Assembly (NCBI GenBank): GCA_025057645.1
Contig: JANXBJ010000014.1
Coordinates: 1-55,282 of the forward strand
Reading direction: 5' to 3'
Source: Anaerolineales bacterium
GTDB taxonomy: Bacteria > Chloroflexota > Anaerolineae > Anaerolineales > UBA4823
Length of the DNA stretch: 55,282 bases
Under the pieces are notes generated by a model. That model made no database searches and was not told where the DNA came from. It saw only the letters and a list, made by a program, of their open reading frames with translations. The translations under genes were made by a program, and so were the position numbers. Numbering within the stretch: the first letter of the stretch is position 1; each line of letters starts with the position of its first letter. Positions 1,800 to 16,914 of the stretch are shown here, in pieces.

Positions 1800-2495
1800 A
1801 TGACCAAACCGTTGATCACCGAAAACCGCAACGAATTATATCCCCTCCACCGATGGGACGTCTCCCTCGAGGAAGCGGAACGCATTCAAGACGAGTTACG
1901 TCATTATGTGCGCATCTCATCTTTTCCGGCTATACTGCAAGCTTCCCTAACCGCTGTCGCTGCGGGCGAGTATGAGGGGAATGTTTTCGCCGCCGCCGTA
2001 ACCGTGGACTCCGGAAAACGTATCCTTGAGAGCAGCATTGAACAGGAAAAGGTTGTCTTCCCTTACCGCAGTGGCTACCTCGCTTTCCACCAAGCGCCAG
2101 CCATATTAAAGGCTCTGACACAACTAAGCCGGCTCGGAGACGTAATGATAGTAAGCGGACATGGGTTGGCGCATCCACGCCGTTTCGGTTTAGCCAGTCA
2201 CCTAGGTGTGCTGCTGGACTTCCCTACCATCGGCTGCGCCCGAGGGCTCCTGCCCGGCAACCAACTCCATCCCAGTGAAAATCCCTTGATTGACTGGGTG
2301 TGTGACACCGAAGGCGTAGTCGGAATTGCCGTATACAAGCAGCGGTACAAGAAACCCTATGTCCTCTCGATCGGTCATCGCGTCGACACGGGGACCTTGC
2401 TCGCCTTCGCTCGTCTCTGGATGAACGACCATTCGACTCCTGAACCTTTGCGTCTGGCACGCCGTTTAGTGCGAGAACAATTTCGGAAAGGATAG
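1800..2495 (+). CDS. Endonuclease V homologue lacking the catalytic acidic residues
   Basis: The 231-residue protein has the length and order of endonuclease V (deoxyinosine 3' endonuclease), including FPY at 87-89, GHGLAHPRRFGLASHLG at 120-136, PTIG at 142-145 and GHRV near 192. Compared from memory with the Thermotoga maritima enzyme, the three Mg2+-binding acids are replaced. D43 (GVDLSF) aligns with A54, E89 (FREGP) with Q98 in FHQAP, and D110 (FDGQGLAHPR) with S119 in VSGHGLAHPR. The lysine of 'GVAK' is arginine (CAR). The fold and the hypoxanthine-pocket region look preserved, so a binding but non-cleaving role is plausible; an unusual active site is the alternative. The stop codon overlaps the next gene's GTG. 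Confidence 0.85.
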   Translation: MTKPLITENRNELYPLHRWDVSLEEAERIQDELRHYVRISSFPAILQASLTAVAAGEYEGNVFAAAVTVDSGKRILESSIEQEKVVFPYRSGYLAFHQAPAILKALTQLSRLGDVMIVSGHGLAHPRRFGLASHLGVLLDFPTIGCARGLLPGNQLHPSENPLIDWVCDTEGVVGIAVYKQRYKKPYVLSIGHRVDTGTLLAFARLWMNDHSTPEPLRLARRLVREQFRKG

Positions 2496-2893
2496 TGAAA
2501 ATCATGCCTCGTTTTCTCATTCGTCTTTTGGTCAATGCCATTGCTCTCTATGTAGCCATTCGTATCGTACCCGGCATCCAACCCCAAACCACGGGGTGGG
2601 CGGCCATCTTGGCGCTAGCGTTGATCTTCGGCGTGATCAATGCCTTTTTCGGGCCCTTGCTCAGGTTCCTCACCTGTCCTCTTATCCTGCTCACGCTGGG
2701 CCTGTTCACTTTGCTCATCAACACCTTCCTGTTTTGGCTTTCCGGGCGGATCGGGGAGATCTTCGGGGTGGGCTTCACCGTTGATAGCTTTTGGTCAGCT
2801 TTTCTCGGTTCCCTTGTTGTCTCCGTTGTGTCGGTGGCCCTGAGCACGTTCTTGCGAGACACCTGGGATGCCCGCCCATCCAGAAGAGACTAA
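2495..2893 (+). CDS. Small phage-holin-family (4-TMS) membrane protein
   Basis: A 132-residue protein with four hydrophobic segments (about residues 5-22, 32-50, 57-80 and 95-118) and the family-typical start LVNAIALYVA.RIVPGI, followed by GVINAFFGPLLR. It belongs to the 'mycobacterial 4 TMS phage holin / PF04020' family, whose members are ordinary chromosomal membrane proteins of unknown role, not lysis proteins. Two starts are possible: GTG at 2495, overlapping the TAG of the upstream gene, or ATG at 2504, which is better spaced from GGAAAGGA at 2484-2491. It appears translationally coupled to the endonuclease V homologue. Confidence 0.82.
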   Translation: MKIMPRFLIRLLVNAIALYVAIRIVPGIQPQTTGWAAILALALIFGVINAFFGPLLRFLTCPLILLTLGLFTLLINTFLFWLSGRIGEIFGVGFTVDSFWSAFLGSLVVSVVSVALSTFLRDTWDARPSRRD

Positions 2894-2944: not shown

Positions 2945-2973
2945 TTGACTTCTCTAACAATCCCCGCTATACT
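2945..2973 (+). promoter_or_regulatory. sigma70-type promoter for the SWIM protein gene
   Basis: TTGACT (2945-2950), a 17-nt spacer, then TATACT (2968-2973). Transcription would start near 2980 and give a leader of about 110 nt containing the hairpin at 3034-3059. Confidence 0.7.
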
Positions 2974-3033
2974 GAAAAGTGAATGAAGAAGTTGACAGAA
3001 TTTCTCTACATCACTCACGGACATAGCGAAGAG

Positions 3034-3059
3034 AAAGCACGCGGGGCAGCGCGTGCTTT
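3034..3059 (+). terminator. 10-bp hairpin in the leader of the SWIM gene (attenuator-like)
   Basis: Perfect inverted repeat AAAGCACGCG (3034-3043) / CGCGTGCTTT (3050-3059) with a 6-nt loop, followed by one more T, then GTGATTTTC. It sits between a good promoter and the start codon at 3092, so it is not the terminator of the upstream gene alone. It may attenuate the SWIM gene or serve as a weak terminator. Confidence 0.5.
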
Positions 3060-3091
3060 TGTGATTTTCACCAGAGGAAAGGAGCCAGACT

Positions 3092-3337
3092 ATGGACTAT
3101 GGGATGATCGGTAAGATCGAGAAGGCAAAGCGGTATGCGGAGCAACGCGAACGCATTCGCTTCGAATCCCTGACGGTCACATTTGAAGGTGAGAACAATC
3201 TCCATTCAGTGCGGCTGGAAAAAGGTGCTTGGCACTGCGATTGTGATTTCTTCCAGTCCCGCGGCCGCTGCAGCCACACCATGGCGCTGGAGATGATCCT
3301 TGAAGGAATGTTACCCCAATCGGCATTCGAAAGCTAG
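3092..3337 (+). CDS. Small SWIM zinc-finger protein
   Basis: An 81-residue protein whose centre carries the SWIM signature CxCx8CxH (C49, C51, C60, H62; WHCDCDFFQSRGRCSH). SWIM domains bind zinc and mediate DNA or protein contacts. Here the domain is essentially the whole protein, with a short basic N-terminus (KIEKAKRYAEQRERIRF). It starts at ATG 3092 behind AAAGGAG at 3078-3084. It has its own promoter and a strong terminator, so it is a monocistronic small gene. Its specific role is unknown. Confidence 0.8.
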   Translation: MDYGMIGKIEKAKRYAEQRERIRFESLTVTFEGENNLHSVRLEKGAWHCDCDFFQSRGRCSHTMALEMILEGMLPQSAFES

Positions 3338-12669: not shown

Positions 12670-12809
12670 GTTATGGCTCCTGCACAAGCCCATCCCCTCA
12701 GAAGCGAATCTCTACCCTATCTAATGAGGTGCGTCAAACCCAAACAAACCCCACCGATCTTTTTTTCAAAAATGTTCGATCCAAACGAAAAGCAGAAGGA
12801 GGCAGAAAG

Positions 12810-14360
12810 ATGTACCGTCAGGCAACCCTTTTGGTCTCAATCCTCGTTGTCGCTTCTCTCTTTCTAGGCGCATGTGCGCCTGCCACCACGCCGACGCCCG
12901 AAGTCTCCACCCCTGAAACTGTCGAGCAAGCCCCCAGTGGTGAGTGGTCCTTGGCCAAAGCAGCCGAGCCTTGGCGAGGTCAAACGCTTCGCTTGATCGG
13001 CGAAGCCCTCCCTCCCCTAGAGGCACTCGAACAACTCAAGGGTCAGTTCGAGGAGATCACCGGAACGAAAGTGATCATCGAGGGCCTAGGCCATGAAGAG
13101 GCTGTCGAAAAAGTAACTCTCGACTTCGCCGGGCAGACCGGTGTCTACGACGTAGTGCTCCAACCTCACCGTGCCCTGGGTAAGTTGGTCAGCAACGGTT
13201 GGTTGCGTCCAATCGATGAATTCTACAACAACCCTGCCCTGCGAGACCCTAACTTCAGTTACGAGGGCTCTCTGCTGAACACGGTTTGGTTCCGTGAAAC
13301 CAACACCTACCAAGGCAAAGTCTACGGATTACCCTTCCACTTTATCAGCATGTACCTATGGTACCGCTACGATTGGTTCGAACATCCTGACGAACAAAAG
13401 GCATTTAAAGAGAAATACGGGTATGATTTGCCTTCACCGCCCATTACCTGGGAAGAATACATGGACGTTGCCGAATTCTTTACTCGCAAGGCCGGCGAGA
13501 CCTTGGCCGGGGAGGTTTTGACCTACGACGTCTATGGCCACACGTGGGGCGGCGCTCGTCACGTCACAGCATGGTACGACTTCCTCAATGTAATTTACTC
13601 CTTCGGCGGCCGCGACATCGCCCTCCCGGACAACCGAGGTGACTCTTACGGGCCTGTGATAGTCAACTCACCCGAAAATCTTGAAGCTCTAAAATTCATC
13701 ATCGAGTCTCTGAAATATGCTCCGCCGGGAGTGCTGAGCTCTACCTGGGACGAGAAACAAGCTGCCCAACAGTCAGGCTTGGTCGCTATGGCAATCCAAT
13801 GGGATGATGCTGCTTTTGCGGTTGAAGACCCGGAGCAATCCAAAGCTGCCGGGAAGATCGCCTATAGCGGCGTGCCGATCAAGAAAGACAAAATGACCCA
13901 GATCGAAGGTTGGGATTACCTGATCCCTAAGAGTTCTAAAAAGCCCGAACTGGCCTGGCTCTTTGTCCAGTGGGCGATGGGCAAAGACGTCCAAATCGCC
14001 CAGATGAAACTCGGCGGCCAGTCGGCGCTTGTCACCACCTACGAAGATCCCGAGGTGCGGGCTATCCCCTATGTGCCCACTTCGGTTTATCTGAAAACCG
14101 GTGGTCAGACCGTGCTCAGCACGCGCAAGGTAGGGGATCCCAGCGGCGTGGGTGTTCCCGAGCGATATCTCAATGCGACCAACCCTAAAACAGGAGACAC
14201 TTCGGTCAGCCTTATCGCTAAACCAACCTTCCCTGAGGAAGAGCGCGTTACCGAAGCGATCATCCTATGGGTGAACCGGGCGCTCACCGGTGAGGTGACC
14301 CCCGAAGTAGCCCTGCAGGAGCTGGAGAAAGAACTCAAGGCGATTCTCCCAGCCCAATAA
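12810..14360 (+). CDS. ABC transporter solute-binding lipoprotein (GlpV-like, family 1)
   Basis: From ATG 12810, behind AAGGAGG at 12796-12802, the protein has 516 residues. Its lipoprotein signal peptide (YRQATLLVSILVVASLFLGAC) has a lipobox around LGAC and is followed by a Thr/Pro linker. The mature part is a family 1 carbohydrate-binding protein (EEITGTKVIIEGLGHEEAVEKVTLDF; GLPFHFISMYLWYR). Over 500 residues is long for a sugar-binding protein and close to GlpV of the rhizobial glycerol importer. The accompanying small membrane protein and two ATPases support a glycerol or polyol substrate, but the ligand is inferred. A longer reading from 12729 would hide the signal peptide and is rejected. 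Confidence 0.88.
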   Translation: MYRQATLLVSILVVASLFLGACAPATTPTPEVSTPETVEQAPSGEWSLAKAAEPWRGQTLRLIGEALPPLEALEQLKGQFEEITGTKVIIEGLGHEEAVEKVTLDFAGQTGVYDVVLQPHRALGKLVSNGWLRPIDEFYNNPALRDPNFSYEGSLLNTVWFRETNTYQGKVYGLPFHFISMYLWYRYDWFEHPDEQKAFKEKYGYDLPSPPITWEEYMDVAEFFTRKAGETLAGEVLTYDVYGHTWGGARHVTAWYDFLNVIYSFGGRDIALPDNRGDSYGPVIVNSPENLEALKFIIESLKYAPPGVLSSTWDEKQAAQQSGLVAMAIQWDDAAFAVEDPEQSKAAGKIAYSGVPIKKDKMTQIEGWDYLIPKSSKKPELAWLFVQWAMGKDVQIAQMKLGGQSALVTTYEDPEVRAIPYVPTSVYLKTGGQTVLSTRKVGDPSGVGVPERYLNATNPKTGDTSVSLIAKPTFPEEERVTEAIILWVNRALTGEVTPEVALQELEKELKAILPAQ

Positions 14361-14685: not shown

Positions 14686-15783
14686 ATGACCGTTTTGACC
14701 TTGAAGAATGTATGGAAGATTTACGAAGGGAACGTAATCGGGGTTGAAGACCTAAGCCTCCGCGTCGAAAATGGCGAGCTGTTTGCCCTTCTCGGACCTT
14801 CAGGGTGCGGAAAGTCCTCTACGTTGCGGATGATCGCCGGCCTAGAAAAGATTTCTAAGGGGGAGATCTGGTTTGACGATGTCTTGGTCAACGACTTAGA
14901 GCCGCGCGAGAGGAATGTAGCCATGGTTTTTGAGAACTATGCCCTCTACCCTTATCTAAGCGTGTATGAAAACATTGCCTTTCCCCTTCGGCTGCGCGGC
15001 ATGAGCCAGGCAGAAATCGATCGGAAAGTGCGGTGGGCGGCGGAGTTTTTAGGCATAACCGATCTTCTTCCTATGCGGGTGCGCGGGTTAAGCGGTGGAC
15101 AGATGCAGGCGGTGGGCATTGGCCGTGCCATTGTGCGTCAACCGGCGGTGCTCTTAATGGACGAGCCCATTTCTCATCTTGAGGCACGCCAGCGAGCGCG
15201 GATGCGGGAAGAATTGGTCGAACTCCACGCTCAGCTTGGCACCACCACTATTTACGTCACTCACGATCAGGTTGAAGCCATGGCCATGGCAGATCGAATT
15301 GCGGTGATGAACCTGGGCAAATTGCAACAGGTGGGCACCCCAAAAGAGGTCTACGACCGACCTCATACCAAGTTTGTGGGCGGCTTCATCGGCGAACCTC
15401 CTATGAATTTTGCCGGTTGTGAACTGATAAACGAAAACGGTGATTTTTACGTTATCTCCCCCTCCTTCAAAATCAAACTCTCTCCCCAGGCCGCAGAGAA
15501 ATTGCGTTTTTATCAAGGGGACCGCCAAGTGCAACTAGGAATTCGACCCGAAAATATCTCGGTTAGCATGACTCCGGCCGAAGGATACTTTCCGGCTAAA
15601 GTCTACGTCACCGAGCCCCAAGGAGACCGCACCTTGCTCTCTGTGCTGTTAGACAATAACGAGCTCTTCCTTATCGAAGTCGCCCCCGATTTCTTCGCTC
15701 CCCCCGATGAAACGGTCTACCTGAAGTTCAACGAACCGATTCATCTGTTCGACCAAGTGGAAGAGGTCAATTTACTTTATTAA
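14686..15783 (+). CDS. ABC transporter ATP-binding protein 1 (MalK/UgpC type, GlpS/T-like)
   Basis: 365 residues. Walker A GPSGCGKSS is at 37-45, signature LSGGQMQAVGIGRA, Walker B VLLMDEP, switch histidine in YVTHDQVEA, and a C-terminal TOBE domain (LGIRPENISV). It departs from MalK/UgpC in two places: the Q-loop glutamine is E83 (VFENYALYP instead of VFQNYALYP), and the D-loop reads SHLEAR rather than SNLDAK. It energises import by the two permeases downstream. It pairs with a second, different ATPase gene, as in GlpS/GlpT. The start is at ATG 14686 behind AGGAGG. Confidence 0.92.
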   Translation: MTVLTLKNVWKIYEGNVIGVEDLSLRVENGELFALLGPSGCGKSSTLRMIAGLEKISKGEIWFDDVLVNDLEPRERNVAMVFENYALYPYLSVYENIAFPLRLRGMSQAEIDRKVRWAAEFLGITDLLPMRVRGLSGGQMQAVGIGRAIVRQPAVLLMDEPISHLEARQRARMREELVELHAQLGTTTIYVTHDQVEAMAMADRIAVMNLGKLQQVGTPKEVYDRPHTKFVGGFIGEPPMNFAGCELINENGDFYVISPSFKIKLSPQAAEKLRFYQGDRQVQLGIRPENISVSMTPAEGYFPAKVYVTEPQGDRTLLSVLLDNNELFLIEVAPDFFAPPDETVYLKFNEPIHLFDQVEEVNLLY

Positions 15784-15810
15784 AGCCGATCCAGAGCGAG
15801 GTTAAGAGTT

Positions 15811-16914
15811 ATGGCAAAGATTACTCTGATGAATGTCTCCAAACAATACAAGGGGGGTGCTATCCAAGCCCTCAAGGACATCAATCTAGAGATCGAAGAC
15901 GGAAAATTCTTCTGCCTTCTAGGGCCCGCGGGCGCCGGGAAGACAACTACGATCAAACTGATCGCCGGGGTGGAACCCGTAGATCAGGGCAAGATTTTCA
16001 TGGACGATCAAGAGGTCACCCACCTACTGCCCAACCAGCGCGATGTGGCAGTAGCCTTCGAAACCTATGCGCTTTACCCCCAAAGGACAGTGCGTGAGAA
16101 CTTGGCCTTCCCCCTACGTGCCCCAATCCGCAGGAAAGAATGGAGCGAAGAGCAAATCCAAGCCCGTGTGGAGGAGATCGCCAAGCTTTTGGGCATCGAA
16201 GACCTCCTAGACCGATTGCCGCGCCAATTGTCCGGTGGGCAACGTCAACGGGTAGCTCTTGGACGTGCCTTAGTGCGTAAGCCGAAGGCTTACCTGCTTG
16301 ACGAACCTATCGCCCACCTCGACGCAAAACTGCGCCACCGAATGCGTGGAGAGCTGCGCCGCATCCAGCTTGAACTGGGAATCACCACTGTCTATACTAC
16401 TCCGGACCAACTAGAAGCGCTCTCGCTAGCCGATCAGATGGCAGTCATTAACGAAGGAAAGATCGAACAAGTTGGCTCACCCGCAGAGATTTACCAGCGT
16501 CCAGCTAATGTCTTTGTGGCTCGTTTCGTCGGAGACCCCCCAATGAACATTTTTCACGCTGAGCTTGAAGATGCAACCCTTTGTCTTTTCGGCGGAAAGA
16601 AACTAGGAATATCCGAGCCACTCTTTTCAAAACTCGCCTCCGCAGCGGTTGAGAAAAGCCTCATCATCGGAATCCGTCCACGGGACATTCGGGTTCTATC
16701 GCCTTCTAGCGCTGAGGCTCTGTGGCGCGGCCAGGTGAAATACGTCCAAGTATTGGGTGAAACTTCGATTCTGACCGTGTCGACCGATTCCTATGAAGTG
16801 CGCATCAAAGTGAACTCTCAAGAAGCGCCGAAACGGGGTGAAGCGGTCGGGCTTGGCTTTGATGTTCGTGACTGTCACTTCTTCGATCCTCGCAGTGAGA
16901 GACGGATCGACTAG
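15811..16914 (+). CDS. ABC transporter ATP-binding protein 2 (MalK/UgpC type) with altered switch region
   Basis: 367 residues. Walker A GPAGAGKTT at 38-46, signature LSGGQRQRVALGRA, Walker B AYLLDEP with a normal D-loop AHLDAK, and a TOBE domain (GIRPRDIRVL). The Q-loop glutamine is replaced by E84 (AFETYALYP). The switch histidine that polarises the attacking water in MalK (VTHDQ) is proline: YTTPDQ, P198. It is probably the second half of a heterodimeric ATPase in which one ATP site is degenerate. The first ATPase of the pair keeps its histidine. Confidence 0.92.
   Translation: MAKITLMNVSKQYKGGAIQALKDINLEIEDGKFFCLLGPAGAGKTTTIKLIAGVEPVDQGKIFMDDQEVTHLLPNQRDVAVAFETYALYPQRTVRENLAFPLRAPIRRKEWSEEQIQARVEEIAKLLGIEDLLDRLPRQLSGGQRQRVALGRALVRKPKAYLLDEPIAHLDAKLRHRMRGELRRIQLELGITTVYTTPDQLEALSLADQMAVINEGKIEQVGSPAEIYQRPANVFVARFVGDPPMNIFHAELEDATLCLFGGKKLGISEPLFSKLASAAVEKSLIIGIRPRDIRVLSPSSAEALWRGQVKYVQVLGETSILTVSTDSYEVRIKVNSQEAPKRGEAVGLGFDVRDCHFFDPRSERRID

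Follow-up and report, generated by a model that had tools for sequence, protein, structure and literature searches.

In bacteria, endonuclease V (EndoV, encoded by nfi) serves in DNA repair, normally by cutting beside damaged (deaminated) adenine. Within the stretch of Anaerolineales DNA analysed here, 55,282 nucleotides in length and referred to below as the window, an open reading frame of 231 amino acids that begins with ATG and contains no internal stops encodes a homologue of this enzyme (Table 1), named here pseudo-EndoV. The product matches the Endonuclease_5 profile (PF04493) at an E value of 1e-39 and 136.7 bits, the family cut-off being 23.4, and no further Pfam family was found at E values up to 0.001. 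The NCBIfam equivalog models for endonuclease V and deoxyribonuclease V gave 136.5 and 134.9 bits, below their cut-offs of 300 and 230; given that these model particular groups, distance alone could account for such scores. A sequence search of the PDB matched the EndoV of T. maritima at E values of 4e-32 to 1e-31. The AlphaFold2 model, built from a 44-row alignment (pLDDT 92.1, pTM 0.89), has the RNase H-like fold of EndoV. T. maritima EndoV tops its Foldseek matches in the PDB (TM-score to query 0.83-0.86), and EndoVs fill the first 35 rows, with 3hd0, 6ozg and 2w35 at the head (0.84-0.85). VIA-align gave Z of about 30 across 218-219 residues (for 2w35, TM-score to query 0.85, Z 30.1, 218 residues).

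The gene is followed on the same strand by genes for a four-transmembrane (4-TM) protein of the Phage_holin_4_2 family and for a SWIM zinc-finger protein. The holin-family gene adjoins pseudo-EndoV on one strand in all six genomes that carry it, and in five of them (G001, G002, G004, G005 and G017) the order is ABC permeases, pseudo-EndoV, holin-family gene and SWIM gene. The ABC genes are not adjacent in the window, where a metallo-beta-lactamase-fold gene adjoins instead. This neighbourhood is shared by relatives whose EndoV retains the metal-binding triad D43, E89 and D110 (D/E/D) together with K139 in T. maritima numbering, and which is called intact or active here as judged by residues alone. 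An intact EndoV precedes both the holin-family and the SWIM gene in G026, G028, G056, G114, G159 and G193, and the SWIM gene in G018, G020, G032, G147, G153 and G165; G020 also has ABC permeases upstream. Many EndoVs of the group show neither neighbour in the short stretches examined, and the holin-family and SWIM genes are paired without EndoV in those from G011, G012, G016, G027 and G029. Since intact-site EndoVs share this neighbourhood, the pseudo-EndoV gene lost its catalytic site in place, and the pairing with the 4-TM protein is older than the loss.

A promoter-like site between the holin-family and SWIM genes would separate the SWIM gene from the EndoV-holin pair; the promoter scan found one site where 1.1 were expected by chance, and the evidence for it is its conservation. 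A GC-rich hairpin, AAGCACGCG...CGCGTGCTTTT, lies in the same gap together with that site (2945-3060), and it is likewise conserved across the five aligned genomes of the genus. It is perhaps a short leader or attenuator, and Rfam gave no match in this intergenic region. Elsewhere in the window there are three tRNA genes on the reverse strand (133-458) and, as judged by eye, a lipoprotein-like reading frame (12729-14360) followed by two ABC-transporter ATPase-like frames (14686-16500), which are separate from the ABC set that borders pseudo-EndoV in other genomes.

Table 1. Features at the pseudo-EndoV locus (window positions; residues in brackets follow T. maritima EndoV)
Feature	Position	Strand	Remarks
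Pseudo-endonuclease V gene, 231 aa	1800..2495	+	PF04493 match, predicted fold, PDB matches
A54 codon (D43)	1959..1961	+	Genus (n=5): A in four, V in one; K in G017; D in 139/139 D/E/D homologues (by selection)
Wedge and pocket segment FPYRSGYLA	2058..2084	+	Tyr89 and Gly92 kept; PYIP replaced by PYRS
Q98 codon (E89)	2091..2093	+	Genus (n=5): Q in four, L in one; A in G017
S119 codon (D110)	2154..2156	+	Genus (n=5): S in four, K in one; E in G017
Recognition loop and helix GHGLAHPRRFGLASHLGVLLD	2157..2219	+	Nearly invariant within the genus
R148 codon (K139, stabilising)	2241..2243	+	R or Q in 6/6 clade members; K in 139/139 D/E/D homologues
R221 codon (H214)	2460..2462	+	R in 5/5 genus members, N in G017; H or D in 137/139 D/E/D homologues
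4-TM Phage_holin_4_2 (PF04020) gene	2504..2893	+	PF04020 E 8.2e-28; start at ATG 2504 or at GTG 2495, the latter overlapping the stop codon of pseudo-EndoV
Promoter-like site (TTGACT/TATACT) before SWIM gene	2945..2973	+	Conserved across the five aligned genus genomes
SWIM zinc-finger gene	3092..3337	+	PF04434 E 3.6e-4; conserved neighbour

Loss of the metal site in one clade

Residues of the window protein were placed by alignment to T. maritima EndoV (TM1865), which serves as the numbering reference. A preliminary description of this DNA had proposed that the three metal-binding acids D43, E89 and D110 are replaced by A54, Q98 and S119, and the alignments bear this out. As read from these alignments, the loss of the catalytic site is confirmed as real and is broader than first noted, since H214, the active-site stabilising K139 and R88 are replaced by R221, R148 and H97, so that none of the six residues is retained. 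We take position 214 to be catalytic, and R88, which is invariant across all 139 D/E/D homologues, to matter for catalysis. The fourth metal ligand of human EndoV is reported to be Asp240 (PMC3489907).

The comparison rests on 150 distinct homologues, which remained after overlapping and duplicate rows were removed from a starting set of 173 ORF hits. D/E/D is found in 139 of them, six belong to the clade described here, three come from Neomarinimicrobiota, one has N/E/D and one (L181) is interrupted by N's; the proportion of 139 in 150 describes this sample and not the rate of D/E/D among all EndoVs. By source, D/E/D occurs in 37 of 44 rows from the order, 28 of 29 from the class and 74 of 77 from a wider genome-contig set. 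The wider set comprises the best 80 of 573 loci (77 distinct rows), retrieved by peptide patterns from this clade, and among the 171 genomes of the class sample with a match only those given a locus were aligned (29 new rows). Two dropped loci that were used for gene order, L125 and L128, were checked separately and are both D/E/D, while L022 (G045), a weak PF04493 match without a match to T. maritima EndoV at E 1e-3, was excluded. An EndoV from the same class, L209 (G542), carries N where D43 would be and shows the motif FDAHG.

The clade is carried by five of the six genomes of the genus (that of the window, G001, G002, G004 and G005) and by G017, which belongs to another genus of the same family. 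D43, E89, D110 and H214 are absent in all six members, but the replacements vary, the residues at 43, 89 and 110 being A/Q/S in the window protein, G001 and G002, V/L/S in G004, A/Q/K in G005 and K/A/E in G017. A lost site that differs among relatives while the remainder of the protein holds is the pattern expected once catalysis no longer selects the site. The preliminary description had also raised the question of other acids at the metal site, and none was found to fill it. Migrated acids were sought as conserved acidic columns and rejected, given that no new acid specific to the clade occurs anywhere in the alignment: each of the nine columns with an acid in at least five of the six members has one in 35-86% of the D/E/D homologues as well. 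Summed over positions 43, 88, 89, 110, 139 and 214, the charge comes to -1 or -2 in all 139 D/E/D homologues as opposed to +1 or +2 in all six clade members. An assembly or sequencing artefact was rejected, since the clade occurs in six separate assemblies with differing residues at the lost site and with no stop within the match.

Conservation across the 139 D/E/D homologues is 97% or higher in 34 columns. Of these, 17 are kept and seven (41, 43, 88, 89, 104, 110 and 139) are lost in all six members, and ten differ between members, among them P82, G154, R171 and E208, the last two outside the metal site. The metal and stabilising columns 43, 89, 110 and 139 are thus lost in every member, compared with three of the other 30 conserved columns; the associated Fisher p of 7.5e-4 is descriptive only, since the original finding already comprised three of these four positions and the 139 homologues were chosen for having D/E/D.

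The residues suggest that the window protein is very likely unable to cleave, although the EndoV-like Endo_dU cuts with less than the full DEDD set. A nuclease that still cuts through a rearranged site, with R221 as a basic residue at the fourth position like that of Endo_dU (DUF99), is accordingly a reading to which we assign a small probability. Endo_dU is reported to have an incomplete DEDD with H, R or K at the fourth position and to cut dU-DNA, its activity being unharmed by D10A alone but not by D10A-H166A (PMC11585767); the residue at the R221 position is basic in five of the six clade members, and the predicted model matches Endo_dU (2qh9) with Z 12.9 over 149 residues. The lack of any conserved acid specific to the clade argues the other way, as does the fact that four positions vary among members (A/V/K, Q/L/A, S/K/E and R/N), unlike a selected active site, and PF04493 as the sole Pfam match leaves none to DUF99. 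Given that the defining metal site is absent, the window protein should not be classed as an EndoV enzyme.

A phylogenetic tree of 103 rows, from which seven catalytic-site columns were omitted, places the six members in one group (100/100) inside the EndoVs of the same family, so that a clade does share the loss, a point that the preliminary description had proposed to check. The group adjoins G026 (98/87), with a bootstrap not fully settled, and its stem branches are long, that of G017 reaching 1.63; this very long branch might be drawn to the stem of the genus. When G017 or the five genus sequences were omitted in turn (trees of 46 and 42 rows), the remaining members still fell near G026, G034, G032, G018 and G020, at low support values of 83/74 for the genus five joined to G026 and 32/7 for the group that includes G017. 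Two Neomarinimicrobiota rows also fall in that region of the tree without G017, which may be long-branch attraction. The loss may have taken place once or stepwise along two branches. Horizontal gain from a distant group is unsupported, as the clade lies among enzymes of the same family and has their gene order.

A second, active nfi, for which the preliminary description had asked, was not found in the genome of the window; that genome is 95.75% complete, which makes the absence likely and not certain. The five other clade genomes likewise yielded one EndoV match each and no second copy. Neither EndoV nor the holin-family gene was found in the genus-mate G003, so the locus may simply be missing from that assembly. 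In G034 a C-terminal EndoV fragment, L023 (G034:C199:2864-2956), lies on the contig of a full EndoV and is likely the remnant of a second copy.

Retained pocket and purifying selection

The preliminary description had held that the fold and four sequence segments survive, and indeed FPY (residues 87-89), GHGLAHPR (120-127), ASHLG (132-136) and GHRV (192-195) are all present in a protein predicted to fold as EndoV. The hypoxanthine pocket of human EndoV is reported to comprise Y91, G94, L96, G127, N128, H132, G137 and L158 (PMC3489907). We transferred these positions to T. maritima EndoV as residues 80, 83, 85, 111, 112, 116, 121 and 142. All eight positions in all six clade members carry residue types that are also found in D/E/D homologues, and Y80 and R118 are retained throughout. 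The wedge is partly altered: the window protein keeps P88 and Y89 (P79 and Y80 of T. maritima) and has R and S in place of I81 and P82, and across the clade PYIP has become PY(R/H/Q)(S/T/P), P82 surviving in G017. Conservation is highest in block 121-140 (HGLAHPRRFGLASHLGVLLD), in which 19 of 20 residues are identical in all five genus members, the exception being residue 124.

The conserved block bears on the suggestion that the protein has a structural role only, for instance as partner of the 4-TM Phage_holin_4_2 protein, with nucleic-acid binding lost. The adjacency of the two genes on one strand in all six genomes speaks for such a role, but the most conserved stretch is the nucleic-acid recognition loop, and the same pairing with intact-site EndoVs in six genomes means that the association does not depend on the loss. 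The latter observation also weakens the earlier proposal of a new function linked to the 4-TM protein, and we regard a purely structural role as unlikely, slightly more so than a rearranged nuclease. Somewhat less probable again is a sensor whose former base pocket would hold a different small ligand, for example a purine nucleotide in free form. A kept pocket beside an altered wedge and active site, with long stem branches, would suit such a sensor, yet Y80 and R118 are kept in all six members, beyond the apparent needs of a free base, and the ligand itself is conjecture.

Pairwise codon models gave omega values for pseudo-EndoV of 0.09-0.22 (mean 0.17) in all ten pairs within the genus, and omega = 1 was rejected for each of them (2dlnL 64-119; dS 0.96-3.10). 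Together with a coding match uninterrupted by stops in six genomes, these values uphold the view in the preliminary description that the gene is not simply decaying. Three sets of intact-site EndoVs had mean omegas of 0.08, 0.08 and 0.11, and the neighbouring genes gave 0.02 (holin family), 0.04 (SWIM), 0.08 (ABC permease) and 0.12 (metallo-beta-lactamase fold); single omegas are rough, since a number of dS values approach or reach saturation, with one active pair at the bound (dS 33). Constraint on pseudo-EndoV is strong, and weaker than on the intact EndoVs and neighbours compared. The higher mean omega and the long stem branches would also be compatible with a changed ligand. A functionless relic in slow decay would account for a mean omega above that of intact-site EndoVs and for the variability of the lost site, but is very improbable with omega far under 1 in ten of ten pairs and the match free of stops in every clade genome.

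A putative reader of deaminated adenine

Given that the fold, the wedge tyrosine and the pocket have been kept while the catalytic site was lost, the protein most likely still scans nucleic acid and holds deaminated adenine. On balance we favour the reading, suggested by the sequence comparisons, of a metal-free pseudonuclease that arose from EndoV in place and probably binds hypoxanthine or inosine without cutting; it is probably a pseudoenzyme that works like an EndoV halted before cleavage. More tentatively, and with a probability that we place below even, it may act as a natural, metal-independent bacterial reader of hypoxanthine or inosine, whose metal site has been rebuilt as a basic phosphate clamp and which signals or shields instead of cutting.

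The ancestor would have been a working EndoV with an intact metal site in the same neighbourhood, with ABC transporter genes upstream and the 4-TM and SWIM genes. This lineage would have dismantled its whole catalytic site, the Arg beside Glu89 and the stabilising Lys as well as the metal ligands, while purifying selection would have preserved the fold together with the wedge tyrosine and the pocket for hypoxanthine. The present protein would scan nucleic acid, accommodate deaminated adenine in its pocket, whether as hypoxanthine in DNA or as inosine in RNA, and hold the base with neither Mg2+ nor a cut, the basic residues in the former metal site neutralising the phosphate in place of a metal. 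As a reader it might mark or shield the site, or pass it on to a different enzyme, for instance the AAG glycosylase (PF02245). AAG is another hypoxanthine repair enzyme, and its gene is present in the genome of the window and in four of the five other genus genomes (G002-G005); none was found in G001, a genome of 67% completeness. With AAG present in the genus, these bacteria may no longer have needed EndoV to cut.

Two of the three substitutions in the window protein, D43A and E89Q, are also mutations made in the laboratory in T. maritima EndoV. PDB entry 2w36 has Ala at residue 43 by alignment, 6ozg is titled E89Q and 6ozf D110N, and all three are titled as EndoV with DNA. Inactive D43A is reported to have been used to record DNA scanning (PMC6300609). 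E. coli EndoV with calcium in place of magnesium is described as binding inosine uncut and serving as an 'anti-inosine antibody' (PMC11273454), and the E. coli enzyme reportedly bound ssDNA after EDTA, its binding of inosine-containing ssRNA being reported as metal-independent (PMC4650699). In the EndoVIA work, however, calcium is called essential for binding by E. coli EndoV and EDTA reduced the signal (PMC11273454), so that a metal-free site might bind poorly. The laboratory mutants D43A, E89Q and D110N moreover lost one residue each, as against all ligands here, which would count against the binding analogy. The changed wedge, and the 17 of 34 conserved columns that are not fully kept, likewise would count against a hypoxanthine reader.

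A lineage in which the ligands are gone and the pocket is kept suggests that reading deaminated adenine is separable from cutting, and we contend that this clade makes a non-cutting role of EndoV-like proteins testable. If inosine is indeed bound with neither metal nor cleavage, the protein could be a ready-made reagent for inosine detection, for which calcium-loaded EndoV is now reported in use (PMC11273454).

Comparison with known systems

Among the matches listed in the open-licence literature, as represented by titles and the beginnings of abstracts, none describes a naturally occurring EndoV pseudoenzyme. One of the closest known systems is endonuclease V itself (nfi; PF04493; T. maritima TM1865, PDB 2w35 and 3hd0), with which the window protein has in common the predicted fold, the pocket, the wedge tyrosine, the neighbourhood of its relatives and its descent; it differs in the lack of D43, E89, D110, H214, K139 and R88 and in a wedge that reads PYRS in place of PYIP. 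Laboratory-inactivated EndoV is another close parallel, A54 corresponding to D43A and Q98 to E89Q of the T. maritima enzyme, and D43A and calcium EndoV having been used to hold DNA or inosine uncut. Those changes (D43A, E89Q and D110N) are man-made and single, whereas in the window clade all ligands were lost by evolution.

A further departure from D/E/D is seen in the three Neomarinimicrobiota (Fidelibacterota) EndoVs (L068:6001-6624, L096:2111-2764 and L107:6001-6666), which form a separate clade (100/100) with one EndoV found in each of three genomes. They carry S, S and N at D43, keep E89, and have H at D110, S at G111 and D at K139, which may mean that the metal site has been rebuilt or that it was lost a second time, independently.

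Endo_dU (DUF99, PF01949; PDB 2qh9) resembles the window protein in its EndoV-like fold, incomplete DEDD and basic fourth position, but it is a separate family that still cuts, and the window protein has no PF01949 match. Ssd1 and other yeast RNase II-like proteins are reported as nucleases that lost catalysis and remained RNA-binding (PMC8097288, PMC8934651). Their catalytic loss is similar to that proposed here, while they differ in family (RNase II), in fold and in their fungal biology.
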